Assembly: GCA_003563855.1 (NCBI GenBank)
Contig: PWTM01000031.1
Coordinates: 1 to 40,781 of the forward strand
DNA: 40,781 nucleotides
Direction of reading: 5' to 3'
DNA from: PVC group bacterium
GTDB lineage: Bacteria; Verrucomicrobiota; Kiritimatiellia; PWTM01
The translations under genes were made by a program, and so were the position numbers. Below are positions 27,813-34,485 of this stretch, piece by piece. How positions within the stretch are numbered: position 1 is the first letter of the stretch; each line of letters starts with the position of its first letter. A model generated the notes under the pieces. The model saw nothing but the letters and a program-made list of their open reading frames with translations. It did not search any database and had not been told where the DNA came from.

Positions 27813-29144
27813 CTAGACCGGAAGCCGCAGCAGGGGGATGCCCACGCGGCGACGTTCCGTTTCGCCCGGCAGCCGGTCCGTCTTCCGGCGCGGCGCGGCA
27901 TCCCGGGCCGCGGGGCGGCGCATCGGCAGGAACAGCCCGGTCCCCAGGCCGAGCCGGTGCTTCCCGTACCGCCGGTTCACGCGATCGATGAGGCGCGAGG
28001 CCTCGGCCATCTTCTCGATCCGCACCGGGTCGTCGAACAGCTCCGGCTGGGTCATCGGGTCGGACTCCAGCTCCTCGAGCAGGACCATCGTCGCGCGGTA
28101 CGGCACGCCGGCGGCATAGAGCGCGTCGAAGAGCGCGCGGACCGCCGGCACCGCCTCGTGCGTCGCCGCCGTCGCGCGGGTGAGCCGCGCCCCGAGGGAC
28201 GCCTGCCCGAAGTCCTGCCGGCGCAGCGCGACCGTGACCGTCCGCGCCCGGAGCCCGTGCCGGCGCAGCTTGATGAAGGCCGACTCCACGTTGCGCAGCA
28301 GCTTCGCGTAGACGAAATCGCGGTCCGCCGACGGCGCGGCGAACGTCTTGCCCTTGCTCAGGCTCGCTTGGAGCGGGGGCGCCCCGGACTGCACGGCGTG
28401 GACGGCATCGCCGCGCAGCTCGCGCCAGATTTCCCGGCCCGGCTTCCCGAGCAGGCGGCCGGCCCAGGCCTCCGGGCGGCGGACGAAATCCAGCGCCGTG
28501 CGCAACCCGTGCCGCTGCAGCAGCGCGACCGTGTTGGGCCCGAACCCCCAGACGTCCGAGAGTGCGCACCGCGCCAGGAAGCGGTGGAGGTGGCGGCCGG
28601 CCACCGCGGTGAACCCGCGCGGCTTGCGGAAATCCGAGGCCAGCTTCGCCAGCCCCTTCGAGAGGCTCAGCCCGATCGAGACGGTCAGGCCCAGTTCGGC
28701 CTCGGCGGCGGCCTGGAACCGCCGGGCGATCTCCGCGTAGGAGGCGCGGTAGAGCCGGCGCAGCCCGGTCAGCTCGGCGAACCCCTCGTCGATCGAGTAC
28801 GCCTCCACGTCCGGCGTGAACCGGCGCGCGATGTCGAACATCCGCTGCGAGAAGAGGCTGTAGGTCTCGTAGTCGCTCGGCAGCACGACCAGGTCGGGGC
28901 AGAGGCGGCGCGCCTCGCCCAGCGCGATGCCGCGGCGCACGCCGCGCGCCTTCGCCTCGTAGCTGGCGCAGGCGATGATGCCGCGCTCCTTGCCGGTGAC
29001 GACCGGCCGGCCGCGCAACGCGGGGTCCGCCGCCTGCTCGACGGCCGCGAAGAAGGCGTCGCCGTCGAAATGCAGGATCGCGCGCGGAAAGCCGTCGAGC
29101 CGCAGGGGCGGGCCCGCGTCCCCGGCTGTCGTTCCGCCGTCCAT
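27813..29144 (-). CDS. dinB: Y-family DNA polymerase (DinB/Pol IV type)
   Basis: The 443-residue translesion polymerase has the catalytic aspartates in HFDGDAFFAAVEQ (residues 25-37, Asp27) and YSIDEGF (Asp119, Glu120), the FGPNTVALLQRHGL helix-hairpin-helix of the thumb, and the little-finger domain (SLSKGKTFAAPSADRDFVYAKLLR onward). A clamp-binding-like QPELF lies at about 365. The long basic C-terminus (to 443 residues) exceeds E. coli Pol IV (351). It lies 18 bases after lexA in the same direction, so it is almost certainly induced with it as part of the SOS response and bypasses damaged template bases with low fidelity. Confidence 0.93.
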   Translation of the reverse strand: MDGGTTAGDAGPPLRLDGFPRAILHFDGDAFFAAVEQAADPALRGRPVVTGKERGIIACASYEAKARGVRRGIALGEARRLCPDLVVLPSDYETYSLFSQRMFDIARRFTPDVEAYSIDEGFAELTGLRRLYRASYAEIARRFQAAAEAELGLTVSIGLSLSKGLAKLASDFRKPRGFTAVAGRHLHRFLARCALSDVWGFGPNTVALLQRHGLRTALDFVRRPEAWAGRLLGKPGREIWRELRGDAVHAVQSGAPPLQASLSKGKTFAAPSADRDFVYAKLLRNVESAFIKLRRHGLRARTVTVALRRQDFGQASLGARLTRATAATHEAVPAVRALFDALYAAGVPYRATMVLLEELESDPMTQPELFDDPVRIEKMAEASRLIDRVNRRYGKHRLGLGTGLFLPMRRPAARDAAPRRKTDRLPGETERRRVGIPLLRLPV

Positions 29145-29162: not shown

Positions 29163-29747
29163 TCAGTACTTGCGGATCACCGCGCGCACCACGCCGCCGA
29201 TCGTCAGCGAGCGCGTCGGGCGGATCGGCGCGTAGGCGCGGTTCGCCGGGTCGAGCCGGACGCCCGACCGGTCGCGCGCGTAGTACTTGATCGTCCACTC
29301 GTCGTCGACCTGCGCCACGACGATGTCGCCGTTGCGCGGCGCGCGACCGCGCTCGACGAGCGCCAGGTCCCCGGGATGGATGCCGGCCTCGATCATCGAG
29401 TCGCCGCTGACCGTCAGCAGGTACGTGGCCTCCGGCCGCTCGACGAGAAAGGCGTCGAGGCTGAGGGTGTCGACCAGTTCCTCTTCGGCCGGCGACGGGA
29501 ACCCGGCCCGGACCGTGCCGAGCAGCCGCACATCGGCGCGAAGCCGTTCGGTCGGCGCCAGCTTCCCGCCGGCGCCCTTGCGCAGGTAGCCGAGCTCGGC
29601 CATGCGCCCGACGGCGCGGAAGACCGCGTTCTTCGAGCGGCACCCGAACAGGACGCGCATCTCCTCGTACCCCGGCAACCGCCCTTCCCGGCGCAGGAAC
29701 CCGCGCACGGCCGTCACCTTCTCTTCCAGCCGCATCGGCGCCTTCAC
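29163..29747 (-). CDS. lexA: LexA-type SOS repressor
   Basis: The 194-residue protein joins an N-terminal winged-helix DNA-binding domain (residues 5-65) to an S24 self-cleaving domain. Cleavage would occur at Ala81-Gly82 in GTVRAGFPS. The catalytic serine is Ser117 in VSGDSMIEAGI and the lysine is Lys154 in DEWTIKYY. In response to RecA filaments such proteins cut themselves and release SOS genes. The start is GTG at 29747 with GGAGGG six bases upstream; an ATG five codons on is less well placed. A UmuD origin is unlikely because the DNA-binding domain is present. The operator at 29793-29808 shows self-regulation. Confidence 0.92.
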   Translation of the reverse strand: MKAPMRLEEKVTAVRGFLRREGRLPGYEEMRVLFGCRSKNAVFRAVGRMAELGYLRKGAGGKLAPTERLRADVRLLGTVRAGFPSPAEEELVDTLSLDAFLVERPEATYLLTVSGDSMIEAGIHPGDLALVERGRAPRNGDIVVAQVDDEWTIKYYARDRSGVRLDPANRAYAPIRPTRSLTIGGVVRAVIRKY

Positions 29748-29785: not shown

Positions 29786-29814
29786 ACGGTACGTGAACGA
29801 TCGTTCACCTTCAA
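29786..29814 (-). promoter_or_regulatory. Predicted lexA-dinB promoter overlapping the LexA operator
   Basis: On the minus strand TTGAAG (29814-29809) and TACCGT (29791-29786) are spaced by exactly 17 bases. The spacer is filled by the palindromic operator. The -10 is weak but the spacing is ideal. Confidence 0.6.
29793..29808. promoter_or_regulatory. SOS box (LexA operator) GAAC-N4-GTTC
   Basis: GTGAACGATCGTTCAC is a perfect 16-base palindrome containing GAAC-N4-GTTC, the Gram-positive/DinR type of LexA box rather than the E. coli CTGT-N8-ACAG. It sits 45 bases upstream of the lexA start codon and 127 bases before pilB. Confidence 0.85.
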
Positions 29815-29817
29815 GCC

Positions 29818-29848
29818 AAAGAAGGTCCGGGCAAAAGAAAGTCCGGGC
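29818..29848. repeat. 16-base-period direct repeat between the lexA and pilus promoters
   Basis: AAAGAAGGTCCGGGC (29818-29832) is repeated as AAAGAAAGTCCGGGC (29834-29848) with one change. The second copy ends two bases before the TTGACA of the pilus promoter, a position suited to an activator. Confidence 0.6.
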
Positions 29849-29849
29849 G

Positions 29850-29879
29850 TTGACACCGCCCGCACGCCTTCCGTAGTAT
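29850..29879 (+). promoter_or_regulatory. Sigma-70 promoter of the type IV pilus cluster
   Basis: A perfect TTGACA (29850-29855) and TAGTAT (29874-29879) are spaced by 18 bases. Transcription would start near 29886, about 50 bases before the first pilB start codon. Confidence 0.7.
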
Positions 29880-29935
29880 GCGGTCGCAGCGGCGTGGCGC
29901 GGTCGGCGTCGGACCCGCGACGGAGGATCGGCTCC

Positions 29936-31644
<1,709 letters not shown>

Positions 31645-31645
<1 letters not shown>

Positions 31646-32748
31646 TGGGCGAACTCATGAAGGCCGGCGAACTGCAGATGGACGACCTGCTCGCGCTGGT
31701 CGTCGAAGAGGGCGCGTCCGACCTGCACATCACCGTCGGCTCGCCGCCCGTGCTGCGCATCCACGGGGCGCTCCAGCCGCTCGATTCCGAGCCGCTGACC
31801 GCGGACGACACCGAGCGGATCATGCGCGCCATCACCTCCGAGGATCATATCCAACGGGTCCGCGAGGGCGGCACGACCGACTTCGGGTTCGGGTTCCGGG
31901 ACCTCGCGCGGTTCCGCGTCAGCGTGCTGAAGCAGAAGGGCTCGTTCGGCATCGTACTCCGGCAGATTCCCTCCCGCCTGATGACGCTCGAGGAGATCGG
32001 CCTTCCGCCCCAGGTCAAGGAACTGCTCTACCGCCCGCGGGGGCTGATCCTGGTCACGGGCCCCACGGGCTCGGGGAAGACGACGACGCTGGCGAGCATG
32101 CTCAACATCATCAACGAAACGCGCGACTGCCACATCGTCACGGTCGAGGACCCGATCGAGTACTACCACGACCACAAGCGCAGCATCGTCACCCAGCGCG
32201 AGATCGGCGTCGATGTCTCCGGTTTCGAGGAGGCGCTGCGGCGCGCGCTGCGCCAGGACCCCGACGTCGTGCTCGTGGGGGAAATGCGGGACCTGGAAAC
32301 GATGGAGGCGGCCATCACGGCGGCGGAGACGGGCCACCTCGTGTTCGCCACGCTGCACACGACGGGCGCGGCGCGAACGGTCGACCGCATCGTCGACGCC
32401 TTCCCCACCGACCAGCAGGAGCAGATCCGGACCCAGCTCTCCTCCACGCTGGTCGCGGTCATCTCGCAGATCCTGCTCCCGCGCGCCGACCGGCCCGGTC
32501 GCGTCGCGGCCTTCGAGATCATGATCGCCACGCCCTCGATCCAGGCGCTCATCCGCGACAACAAGACCTTCCGCATCACCTCGGACATCCAGACGGGCGG
32601 CCGCCTGGGCATGTTCACGCTCGATACGCACCTGTTCGACCTCTACCGCCGGGGCATGGTCAAGTACGAGGAGATGATCACCAAGGTCCAGGACGCCGAG
32701 GGCGTGCTGGAGAAGCTCGAGGCCCTCAAGCATTCGAAACGAAGGTAA
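31645..32748 (+). CDS. pilT: Type IV pilus retraction ATPase
   Basis: The 367-residue hexameric ATPase drives pilus retraction. Seen: the N-terminal [18 protein letters not shown], Walker [12 protein letters not shown] (from residue 139), the [20 protein letters not shown] Walker B region, [21 protein letters not shown], and the C-terminal [15 protein letters not shown] segment that corresponds to the AIRNLIRE retraction motif of PilT. It lacks the N-terminal extension and zinc motif of PilB. It lies between two PilB-type genes and is translationally coupled to the first. Confidence 0.93.
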
Positions 32749-32754
32749 GGCGCC

Positions 32755-34485
32755 ATGTCCGAGCCCACCGAATCCAACGCCGCGATCCAGGACTACCTCC
32801 TGCAGCAGGTGCTCGAGGACGGCCTGGTCACCCCCGAACTGGCCGCCGAGATCATGGAGGAGCATCGCCGCACCGGGACGCCGACGCGGGAGCTGATCGT
32901 GGACATGGAAGCGGTCAGCGAGGACCAGATCCTCGACCTGATCGACCGGCAACTGGACTCCTACGTCATCGACCTCTCCTCGCGGTCCATCGACGAAGAC
33001 ACCGCGCGCACCATCCCGGCCAGCGCGGCCCGGATGTACAACGTCGTGCCGGTCGAGGCGAAGGACAACACGGTGACGCTCGCGACCTCCGACCTCCTCA
33101 GTCCGGAGGTCATGGACGAGCTGGTCTTCGTCCTGACCCGCGACATCCAGTACGTGGTCGCCCGCCGCCGCGATATCCATAACGCGATCCTCGAGATCTT
33201 CGGCGACGTGAGCGAGTCGGTCGGCGACATGCTCTCGCAACTGGAATCCGACCTGGAGTCCGCCGGCGACCTGCTGGACATGTCGAAGGCCAAGGGCGGC
33301 GATATCGTCGACCTCGAGCAGGTGGCCAACCAGGCGCCCGTCGTTCGTTTCGTCAACCTCGTGCTCTACCAGGCGGTCCAGGACCGCGCCTCCGACATCC
33401 ACTTCGAGCCCTTCGAGGACGCGTTCAAGATCCGGTACCGCGTCGACGGCGCGCTCTACGAGATGGCGCCGCCGCCCAAGCAGCTCGCCCTGCCGGTCAC
33501 CTCCCGGATCAAGGTCATCTCGGGACTGAACATCGCCGAGCGCCGGCTCCCGCAGGACGGGCGCATCAAGCTGACGATCGGCGGCCGGCCGATCGACTTC
33601 CGCGTCTCGACCCTGCCAACCCAGTTCGGCGAGAGCGTCGTGCTGCGTATCCTCGACCAGAGCATCGTGCAGCTCGACCTCGAAAACATCGGGATGCCGG
33701 ACGATATCTACGAGACGTTCAGCTACGACATCACCAAGCCCAACGGCATCGTCATCGTCACGGGCCCCACGGGCTCCGGAAAGACGACGACGCTCTACGC
33801 GGCGCTCAAGCGCCTGAACCGGATCGAGACCAAGCTGCTGACGGCCGAGGATCCGGTCGAGTACGACGTGGAAGGGATCATTCAGATCCCGATCCACGAA
33901 TCGATCGGCCTTACGTTCGCCCGCACGCTGCGCGCCTTCCTCCGGCAGGATCCCGACATCATCCTCGTCGGCGAGGTCCGCGACCTCGAGACCGCGCAGA
34001 TCGCCATCCAGGCGTCGCTGACGGGCCACCTGGTGTTCAGCACACTGCACACGAACGACGCGCCGGGCGCGATCACGCGCCTGGTCGACATGGGCGTCGA
34101 GCCCTTCCTTATTTCCTCCACGCTGGAAGGCATTCTCGCGCAGCGGCTCGTGCGCACGATCTGCGCGCACTGCAAGAAGCCCTACGCGCCGGAGGCGTCG
34201 CTGCTCCAGCAGCTCGATCTGCGCACCGAGCAGATCGGCGACCGCCCGTTCTATTTCGGCGAGGGATGCAAGCAGTGCAACAACACCGGCTACCACGGCC
34301 GCCGCGGCGTCTTTGAGTACCTGCGGATCACGGATCCGATCCGGGAGCTGATCAACCAGCGCAAACCGACGCTGCAGCTCCGCGACAAGGCCGTCGAGAT
34401 GGGGATGCGCACCTTGCGCGAAGACGGCGTACGCTGCATCCTGGACGGGTACACCACGGTCGAAGAAGTGCTGAAGTACACCTGA
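32755..34485 (+). CDS. Type IV pilus / type II secretion assembly ATPase (PilB/GspE family), second copy
   Basis: This 576-residue paralogue has the same architecture as the first copy: an N-terminal MshEN-like region (LLQQVLEDGLVTPELAAEIMEEH), ASDIHFEPFED, Walker [13 protein letters not shown] (from residue 337), FLRQDPDIILVGEVRDLETAQ, LVFSTLHTNDAPGA, and the tetracysteine CAHCK with CKQCNNTGYHGR. The linker between N-domain and ATPase is longer and acidic. It begins six bases after pilT and precedes pilC. The two ATPases may serve different assemblies (pilus versus secretion pseudopilus) or work as mixed motors; the sequence does not decide. Confidence 0.92.
   Translation: MSEPTESNAAIQDYLLQQVLEDGLVTPELAAEIMEEHRRTGTPTRELIVDMEAVSEDQILDLIDRQLDSYVIDLSSRSIDEDTARTIPASAARMYNVVPVEAKDNTVTLATSDLLSPEVMDELVFVLTRDIQYVVARRRDIHNAILEIFGDVSESVGDMLSQLESDLESAGDLLDMSKAKGGDIVDLEQVANQAPVVRFVNLVLYQAVQDRASDIHFEPFEDAFKIRYRVDGALYEMAPPPKQLALPVTSRIKVISGLNIAERRLPQDGRIKLTIGGRPIDFRVSTLPTQFGESVVLRILDQSIVQLDLENIGMPDDIYETFSYDITKPNGIVIVTGPTGSGKTTTLYAALKRLNRIETKLLTAEDPVEYDVEGIIQIPIHESIGLTFARTLRAFLRQDPDIILVGEVRDLETAQIAIQASLTGHLVFSTLHTNDAPGAITRLVDMGVEPFLISSTLEGILAQRLVRTICAHCKKPYAPEASLLQQLDLRTEQIGDRPFYFGEGCKQCNNTGYHGRRGVFEYLRITDPIRELINQRKPTLQLRDKAVEMGMRTLREDGVRCILDGYTTVEEVLKYT

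Follow-up and report, generated by a model that had tools for sequence, protein, structure and literature searches.

A Probable LexA-Type Operator at the Promoter of a Repressor–Polymerase Gene Pair in Kiritimatiellae and Its Relatives

Among verrucomicrobia, the LexA protein of V. spinosum reportedly recognizes the motif TGTTC-N4-GAACA; the change of motif is said to have been traced to residues of helix 3, and the regulon reportedly includes recA. In Gram-positive bacteria the SOS consensus is CGAAC...GTTCG, i.e., with a C at position 7. The accessible text of PMC3323433 gives CTGT-N8-ACAG as the consensus of the E. coli LexA box and places the B. subtilis DinR/LexA box in the GAAC-N4-GTTC class. 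A comparable arrangement of genes is the lexA-imuB-C-polY operon of Geobacter sulfurreducens, for which the motif GGTT-N10-AACC is reported in the part of PMC8565304 consulted. It shares with the locus described here an autoregulated lexA with a Y-family polymerase, recA being outside the regulon, but there an imuB-C gene lies between lexA and the polymerase gene, whereas at the present locus 18 bp separate the two. In Acinetobacter, according to the accessible part of PMC4807011, UmuDAb did not take the place of UmuD in the work of the polymerase. That protein belongs to another group of organisms, and its neighbor is ddrR, where here it is the gene of a Pol IV-like enzyme. A literature search limited to open-licence papers found no paper on LexA in Kiritimatiellae.

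The window, i.e., the whole stretch of DNA that was analyzed, comprises 40,781 nucleotides of contig PWTM01000031.1 (assembly GCA_003563855.1). On its minus strand, the gene of P0001 (29163..29747, GTG start) codes for a LexA/UmuD-type S24 autoprotease-repressor of 194 aa (Pfam Peptidase_S24, PF00717, 6e-29). The gene of P0002 (27813..29144) starts 18 bp after it on the same strand and codes for a Y-family (DinB/Pol IV-like) DNA polymerase of 443 aa (Pfam IMS 5e-45, IMS_C 4e-16), whose best NCBIfam match is DNA polymerase IV, with 237 bits and under the cut-off of 371. Read along the minus strand, the putative promoter of this lexA-dinB pair consists of the −35 element TTGAAG (29814-29809; homolog consensus CTTGAAA), a 17-nt spacer (29808-29792), and the −10 element TACCGT (29791-29786), which is weak (3/6 vs. 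TATAAT) and stands where many homologs show TATnnT. The strict promoter scan did not report this promoter. Within this spacer lies the perfect 16-bp palindrome GTGAACGATCGTTCAC (29793..29808, no strand), which ends 45 bp before the start of the repressor gene. The initial annotation had placed a perfect palindrome between the −35 and −10 elements of lexA-dinB, and the sequence bears this out; the GAAC-N4-GTTC that it named is real, and the palindrome runs 2 bp further on each side. GAAC-N4-GTTC occurs once in the window for 0.55 expected, and at least once in 42 of 100 shuffles, so that the GTGAACGATCGTTCAC site, taken alone, proves nothing. The 3.27-Mb genome has 65 such places (seven for the reversed control), and TGAAC-N4-GTTCA occurs in it exactly once, at this site. 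Just upstream of the −35 element there is an imperfect direct repeat (AAAGAAGGTCCGGGC / AAAAGAAAGTCCGGGCG, plus strand, 29817-29848), adjoined by a terminator-like hairpin (minus strand, 29862-29844).

P0001 scores 107.2 bits against the NCBIfam LexA model TIGR00498, below the cut-off of 110.95 that a number of its homologs in relatives pass, and 110 bits against the UmuD model NF007621, which equals that model's cut-off of 110 and points to a UmuD-type C-terminal domain. The profile of its family matches UmuD with 107.4 bits over the C-domain, and LexA C-domain chains with 91.9 and 88.5. As expected of an S24 LexA, the Ala81-Gly82 cleavage site, Ser117, and Lys154 are invariant in all 40 aligned homologs. 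A LexA DNA-binding domain is not among the Pfam matches of P0001, and a PDB search with its N-terminal 80 residues by themselves returned no LexA. The AlphaFold model (mean pLDDT 80, with a poor linker at residues 73–100) has helices at 7–21, 27–34, and 39–51 together with two strands, which corresponds to the N-terminal winged helix-turn-helix of LexA, and the full-length model matches the LexA fold, including LexA-DNA complexes (3jso, E 5e-12). As judged from sequence, it also has the operator in its own promoter that autoregulation by a LexA protein calls for.

The site becomes convincing by comparison with homologs, not from the window alone. Homologs of P0001 were taken from named contigs, namely the best 80 of 406 relatives; from genomes of the class, of which 111 out of 345 matched at E ≤ 1e-40; and from the nearest genomes, of which 41 out of 58 matched at E ≤ 1e-3. 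The resulting 194 loci collapse to 127 distinct proteins, of which 126 have 200 nt or more of upstream sequence. Exact TGAAC-N4-GTTCA is found upstream of 68 of these 126 (shuffle mean 0.04) and GAAC-N4-GTTC upstream of 91 (shuffle mean 0.66), the reversed patterns never, where the shuffles are of mononucleotides and thus cruder than those used for the window. The promoter context is conserved as well: among 69 exact sites, TTG stands 5–8 nt before the 16-mer in 61 and TAnnnT at its end in 55, both being present in 54, as against 1.4% of random positions. Forty operators chosen from the 69 align to nCTTGAAAnTGAACGATCGTTCAGTTATnnT. The consensus of the clade is [C/G]TGAAC-N4-GTTCA[G/C]. The operator finder applied to the loci has a scoring bonus for TGAAC, which favors T at position 7, and is blind to the base at position 8. 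The same box precedes homologs on contigs labelled Nitrospirae, Omnitrophica, Roizmanbacteria, and Gottesmanbacteria. The comparison thus supports the initial proposal of a LexA-family operator in the lexA-dinB promoter spacer, the lineage being of Kiritimatiellae/Lentisphaerae type. Rarer operator classes were also seen (loci L133, L139, L264–L271, and L283): CGGAC...GTCCG with the helix SKGGV, GGTACG...CGTACC with SKSPV, and, where a site was found, TAGAAC...GTTCTA with SKNT. A further type is that of the cultured Pontiella sulfatireligans (L087), whose box is GTAC-type and whose repressor has Asn44.

The bases of the operator appear to follow the recognition helix of the repressor (residues 39–51, an AlphaFold helix; 29595..29633, minus strand), in which Ala41 covaries with operator position 7 and Arg44 with position 8. 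When 13 of the 127 proteins are dropped for lack of a clear site, 114 rows remain, in which operator positions 8 to 3 were paired with repressor residues 34–59. Among these 156 pairs, position 8 paired to residue 44 scores highest (z 21.2), followed by position 7 paired to residue 41 (z 19.3). Repressors with Arg44 or Lys44 have G at position 8 in both halves in 24 of 26 cases, and in one half in the other two (L135, L275). None of the 59 with Gly44 has G in both halves, 94 of their 118 half-sites having C at position 8; the remaining 29 rows have neither Arg/Lys nor Gly at residue 44. Of the 12 Thr41 members, 11 have A at position 7, while 80 of 84 Ala41 members have no A there and T is found in 155 of their 168 half-sites. 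Of the 18 rows with Pro45, 13 have T at position 5, compared with 5 of the 96 rows that lack Pro45; this association is weak because Pro45 arises only once on the tree. In the full-length family profile, residues 41 and 44 align with Ala42 and Glu45 of E. coli LexA, which are among five DNA-contacting residues listed in the consulted part of PMC3091678. On a tree built without the recognition helix, the residue-44 trait changes nine times. The quick tree offers three independent pairs on supported branches (operator changing in the same direction in a mean of 2.9, never in the opposite one; median p 0.25), and the careful tree five (mean 4.7, opposite never; median p 0.0625). Because p never falls below 0.05, the covariation corrected for phylogeny is suggestive, not significant.

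The initial annotation had put the box in the Gram-positive class instead of that of E. coli, and this is right for only part of the sequence. The GAAC-N4-GTTC core belongs to the DinR type, and as with B. subtilis DinR the box lies at the promoter of lexA and of a translesion polymerase. Unlike the DinR box, which has C/G at position 7 (C in the consensus), the present one has T/A there, its conserved unit spans 16 bp, position 8 being C or G, and recA and uvrA show no box in this genome. The length of 16 bp and the outer CTG...CAG are shared with the E. coli box: with T at position 7 and C/G at position 8, much of the clade reads CTGAAC-N4-GTTCAG. The likeness stops at this outer CTG, found in most Gly44 members, for where CTGT-N8-ACAG has CTGT, most Gly44 relatives have CTGA and the present site GTGA. 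The repressors are alike in fold, cleavage site, catalytic pair, 16-bp palindrome, and the placement of contact residues in the same helix; they differ in the inner half-site, here GAAC, in residues 43–44, here mostly [FHY][GRK] and not Glu-Glu, and in the regulon, which here apparently consists of two genes. V. spinosum LexA, from the same phylum in the wide sense, likewise has a 14-bp palindrome, but its inner arms reportedly read TGTTC against TGAAC here, and its regulon is said to contain recA.

Genomes in which the polymerase gene has moved away from the repressor gene provide a separate comparison. A close homolog of P0002 is found in 28 of 58 genomes, and in 11 of these its gene is unlinked to the P0001-type gene. 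Eight of these 11 genes have their own box upstream (G005, G011, G020, G024, G032, G033, G044, and G054), exact in G005, G024, G032, and G054; the G032 box and the first ATG of its reading frame overlap, which makes the promoter position there uncertain. The three without a box upstream (G014, G030, and G041) all belong to one family. The flanks of the boxes are of the class expected from the helix of each genome. The Arg44 genomes G024 and G054 have GTGAAC...GTTCAC, and in G044, whose repressor has Gln as residue 40, the lexA-like and the polymerase gene both carry the variant AACTATAGTT. In G022, which has the polymerase and lacks P0001, there is no box at the polymerase gene. G005 and others had been considered as having extra regulon members and were rejected as such, the boxed gene being the unlinked polymerase gene itself. 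In G036 (C25, 24695-26660) a single box separates the lexA-like gene from a divergently oriented polymerase gene, and this one operator may therefore serve both. In other relatives small unrelated genes lie between the two (L068, 4560-5130; L070, 4565-5060), confirmed as four-helix-bundle (TIGR02436) or GxxExxY (TIGR04256) proteins; similar insertions in L074, L076, L096, and L103 were recognized by eye.

Position, conservation, covariation of repressor and operator, and the boxes at unlinked polymerase genes, all drawn from comparison of sequences, indicate that GTGAACGATCGTTCAC is very probably the operator of P0001, through which it would repress its own gene and that of the Y-family polymerase. 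The frequency of GAAC-N4-GTTC in shuffled windows would suit a palindrome arisen by chance and devoid of function, but its sequence and its place in the promoter are conserved across homologs in several phyla, and on this ground we reject chance, whose probability is negligible. One could also take GTGAACGATCGTTCAC for the site of another regulator, since TetR operators are typically palindromes that are short and perfect, or for an element serving the divergent pilB-like gene (29894-31645, plus strand; a PilB/GspE-type ATPase, Pfam T2SSE), as the box sits between two divergent genes. This is very improbable: a foreign regulator would not account for operator bases that follow the helix residues of P0001, nor for the recurrence of the box at unlinked polymerase genes, and we reject it for these reasons. 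The pilB-like gene has its own near-consensus sigma-70 promoter, TTGACA-18-TAGTAT (29850-29879, plus strand; 10/12, shuffle mean 0.0), about 40 bp downstream of the box and clear of the operator. That gene opens a row of three T2SSE ATPase genes (29894-34485, plus strand), the first and third of which carry an MshEN domain, so that two PilB/GspE-type ATPases flank a PilT-like one.

A wider role, in which GTGAACGATCGTTCAC would be the SOS box of the whole organism and P0001 a global LexA over recA, uvrA, and other repair genes, draws on two observations: P0001 is the only LexA-type (TIGR00498-type) match in its genome, and the relative G051 has exact boxes at recA (L183) and beside an S24 UmuD-like gene (L341, C109). 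This genome has no close P0002 homolog, and its regulon seems to have moved or widened. It is also the only one with a recA box among the 30 genomes examined, the present one included, of the 57 with a recA match; a uvrA box is found in none of 30 relatives. In the present genome, which is 89.8% complete, there is no site with up to one mismatch in 3.7 kb upstream of recA and none with up to two mismatches in 400 bp upstream of uvrA, and the best site at a second UvrA-type gene has two mismatches. The initial annotation had offered the box as a general SOS box, checkable at recA, uvrA, and imuA/dnaE2, and had stated beforehand that its absence in front of recA or other repair genes would speak against this; such an absence is what was found, which leaves the general prediction unsupported. 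DnaE2 is not encoded (best match 619 bits vs. a cut-off of 939) and exceeds the cut-off in only two of 38 genomes. A search of the genome with the profile of 40 operators, under stricter filters that may lose weak sites, returns only the GTGAACGATCGTTCAC site at E ≤ 1, once per strand. There are 29 further sites with one mismatch; most of the 24 examined lie inside long reading frames, and no repair-gene promoter was recognized among them, neighbors being judged without family search. Furthermore, G019, G020, G044, and G054 carry a second, better-scoring LexA beside the P0001-type protein. A global SOS role is therefore improbable, and the recA, uvrA, and dnaE2 results lead us to reject it; in this genome the box looks like a private switch of the lexA-like gene and polymerase pair and not the master switch of DNA repair. 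A box match in G003, at what we take to be a riboflavin-synthase-like gene, was set aside as a probable chance occurrence. The present genome also has an open frame of 1819 aa (C187, 5180-10537) with two UvrA-type units in tandem.

With GTGAACGATCGTTCAC as the operator of P0001, the LexA/UmuD family suggests how the switch would work. A P0001 dimer bound to it would cover the promoter spacer between the −35 and −10 elements, thereby repressing its own gene and the co-transcribed polymerase gene. Upon DNA damage, RecA filaments would stimulate self-cleavage of P0001 at Ala81-Gly82, the operator would be emptied, and the repressor–polymerase pair switched on. The module would thus be a compact, autoregulated translesion-polymerase unit with a tiny regulon, the lexA-like gene and the polymerase gene.

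The C-terminal tail of the polymerase suggests a further role for the repressor. Residues 382–401 of P0002 (ASRLIDRVNRRYGKHRLGLG; 27942..28001, minus strand) follow a Q..LF clamp motif and resemble the N-terminus of RecA. Both the clamp motif and a [YFWL]GK[HY]-type core are present in 56 of 56 usable homolog tails. A RecA-N-terminal motif has been described for Y-family polymerases, and in UmuC a tail such as the one described below binds UmuD' (both in the accessible part of PMC6511836); the likeness of the P0002 core to that motif is drawn here. The alignment of the polymerase tail to RecA N-termini by hhalign has the expected register with a probability of 3.8%, and the RecA-like reading is hence only suggestive. 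The last 25 residues (27816..27890, minus strand; RK..LLxGETxRxRLxIP...) are conserved and form a candidate partner-binding tail, RK..GETxRxRL standing at the C-terminal end in 52 of 56 homologs; the G022 polymerase keeps this tail in a genome without P0001. Because P0001 has a UmuD-like half and the polymerase a conserved tail, P0001 may in addition work as a subunit of the polymerase, in the manner of UmuD. Intact, it would repress the operon, and when cut with the assistance of RecA it would yield a UmuD'-like half that becomes an accessory subunit of the released polymerase, docking on the RK..LLxGETxRxRLxIP tail that follows the putative RecA-binding motif. In that case the operator would switch a self-contained mutasome that resembles Pol V but is built around a Pol IV-type enzyme. 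Such a mutasome would occur in Kiritimatiellae and, whether transferred or inherited, in Nitrospirota, Omnitrophota, and CPR bacteria. This extended reading is tentative and on balance rather unlikely.

These results provide a comparatively supported operator for a large class of bacteria, most of them uncultured, together with a natural series in which two helix residues change with two operator positions, so that LexA specificity can be tested directly by swaps of helix and operator. They also point to a control of the response to DNA damage reduced to a repressor and an error-prone polymerase, with recA outside. Such a pair accords with the view, stated in the accessible part of PMC7739468, of translesion synthesis as the core of the SOS response. 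If the UmuD-like half of the repressor does serve the polymerase as well, a single molecule would link repression to the activation of the polymerase.
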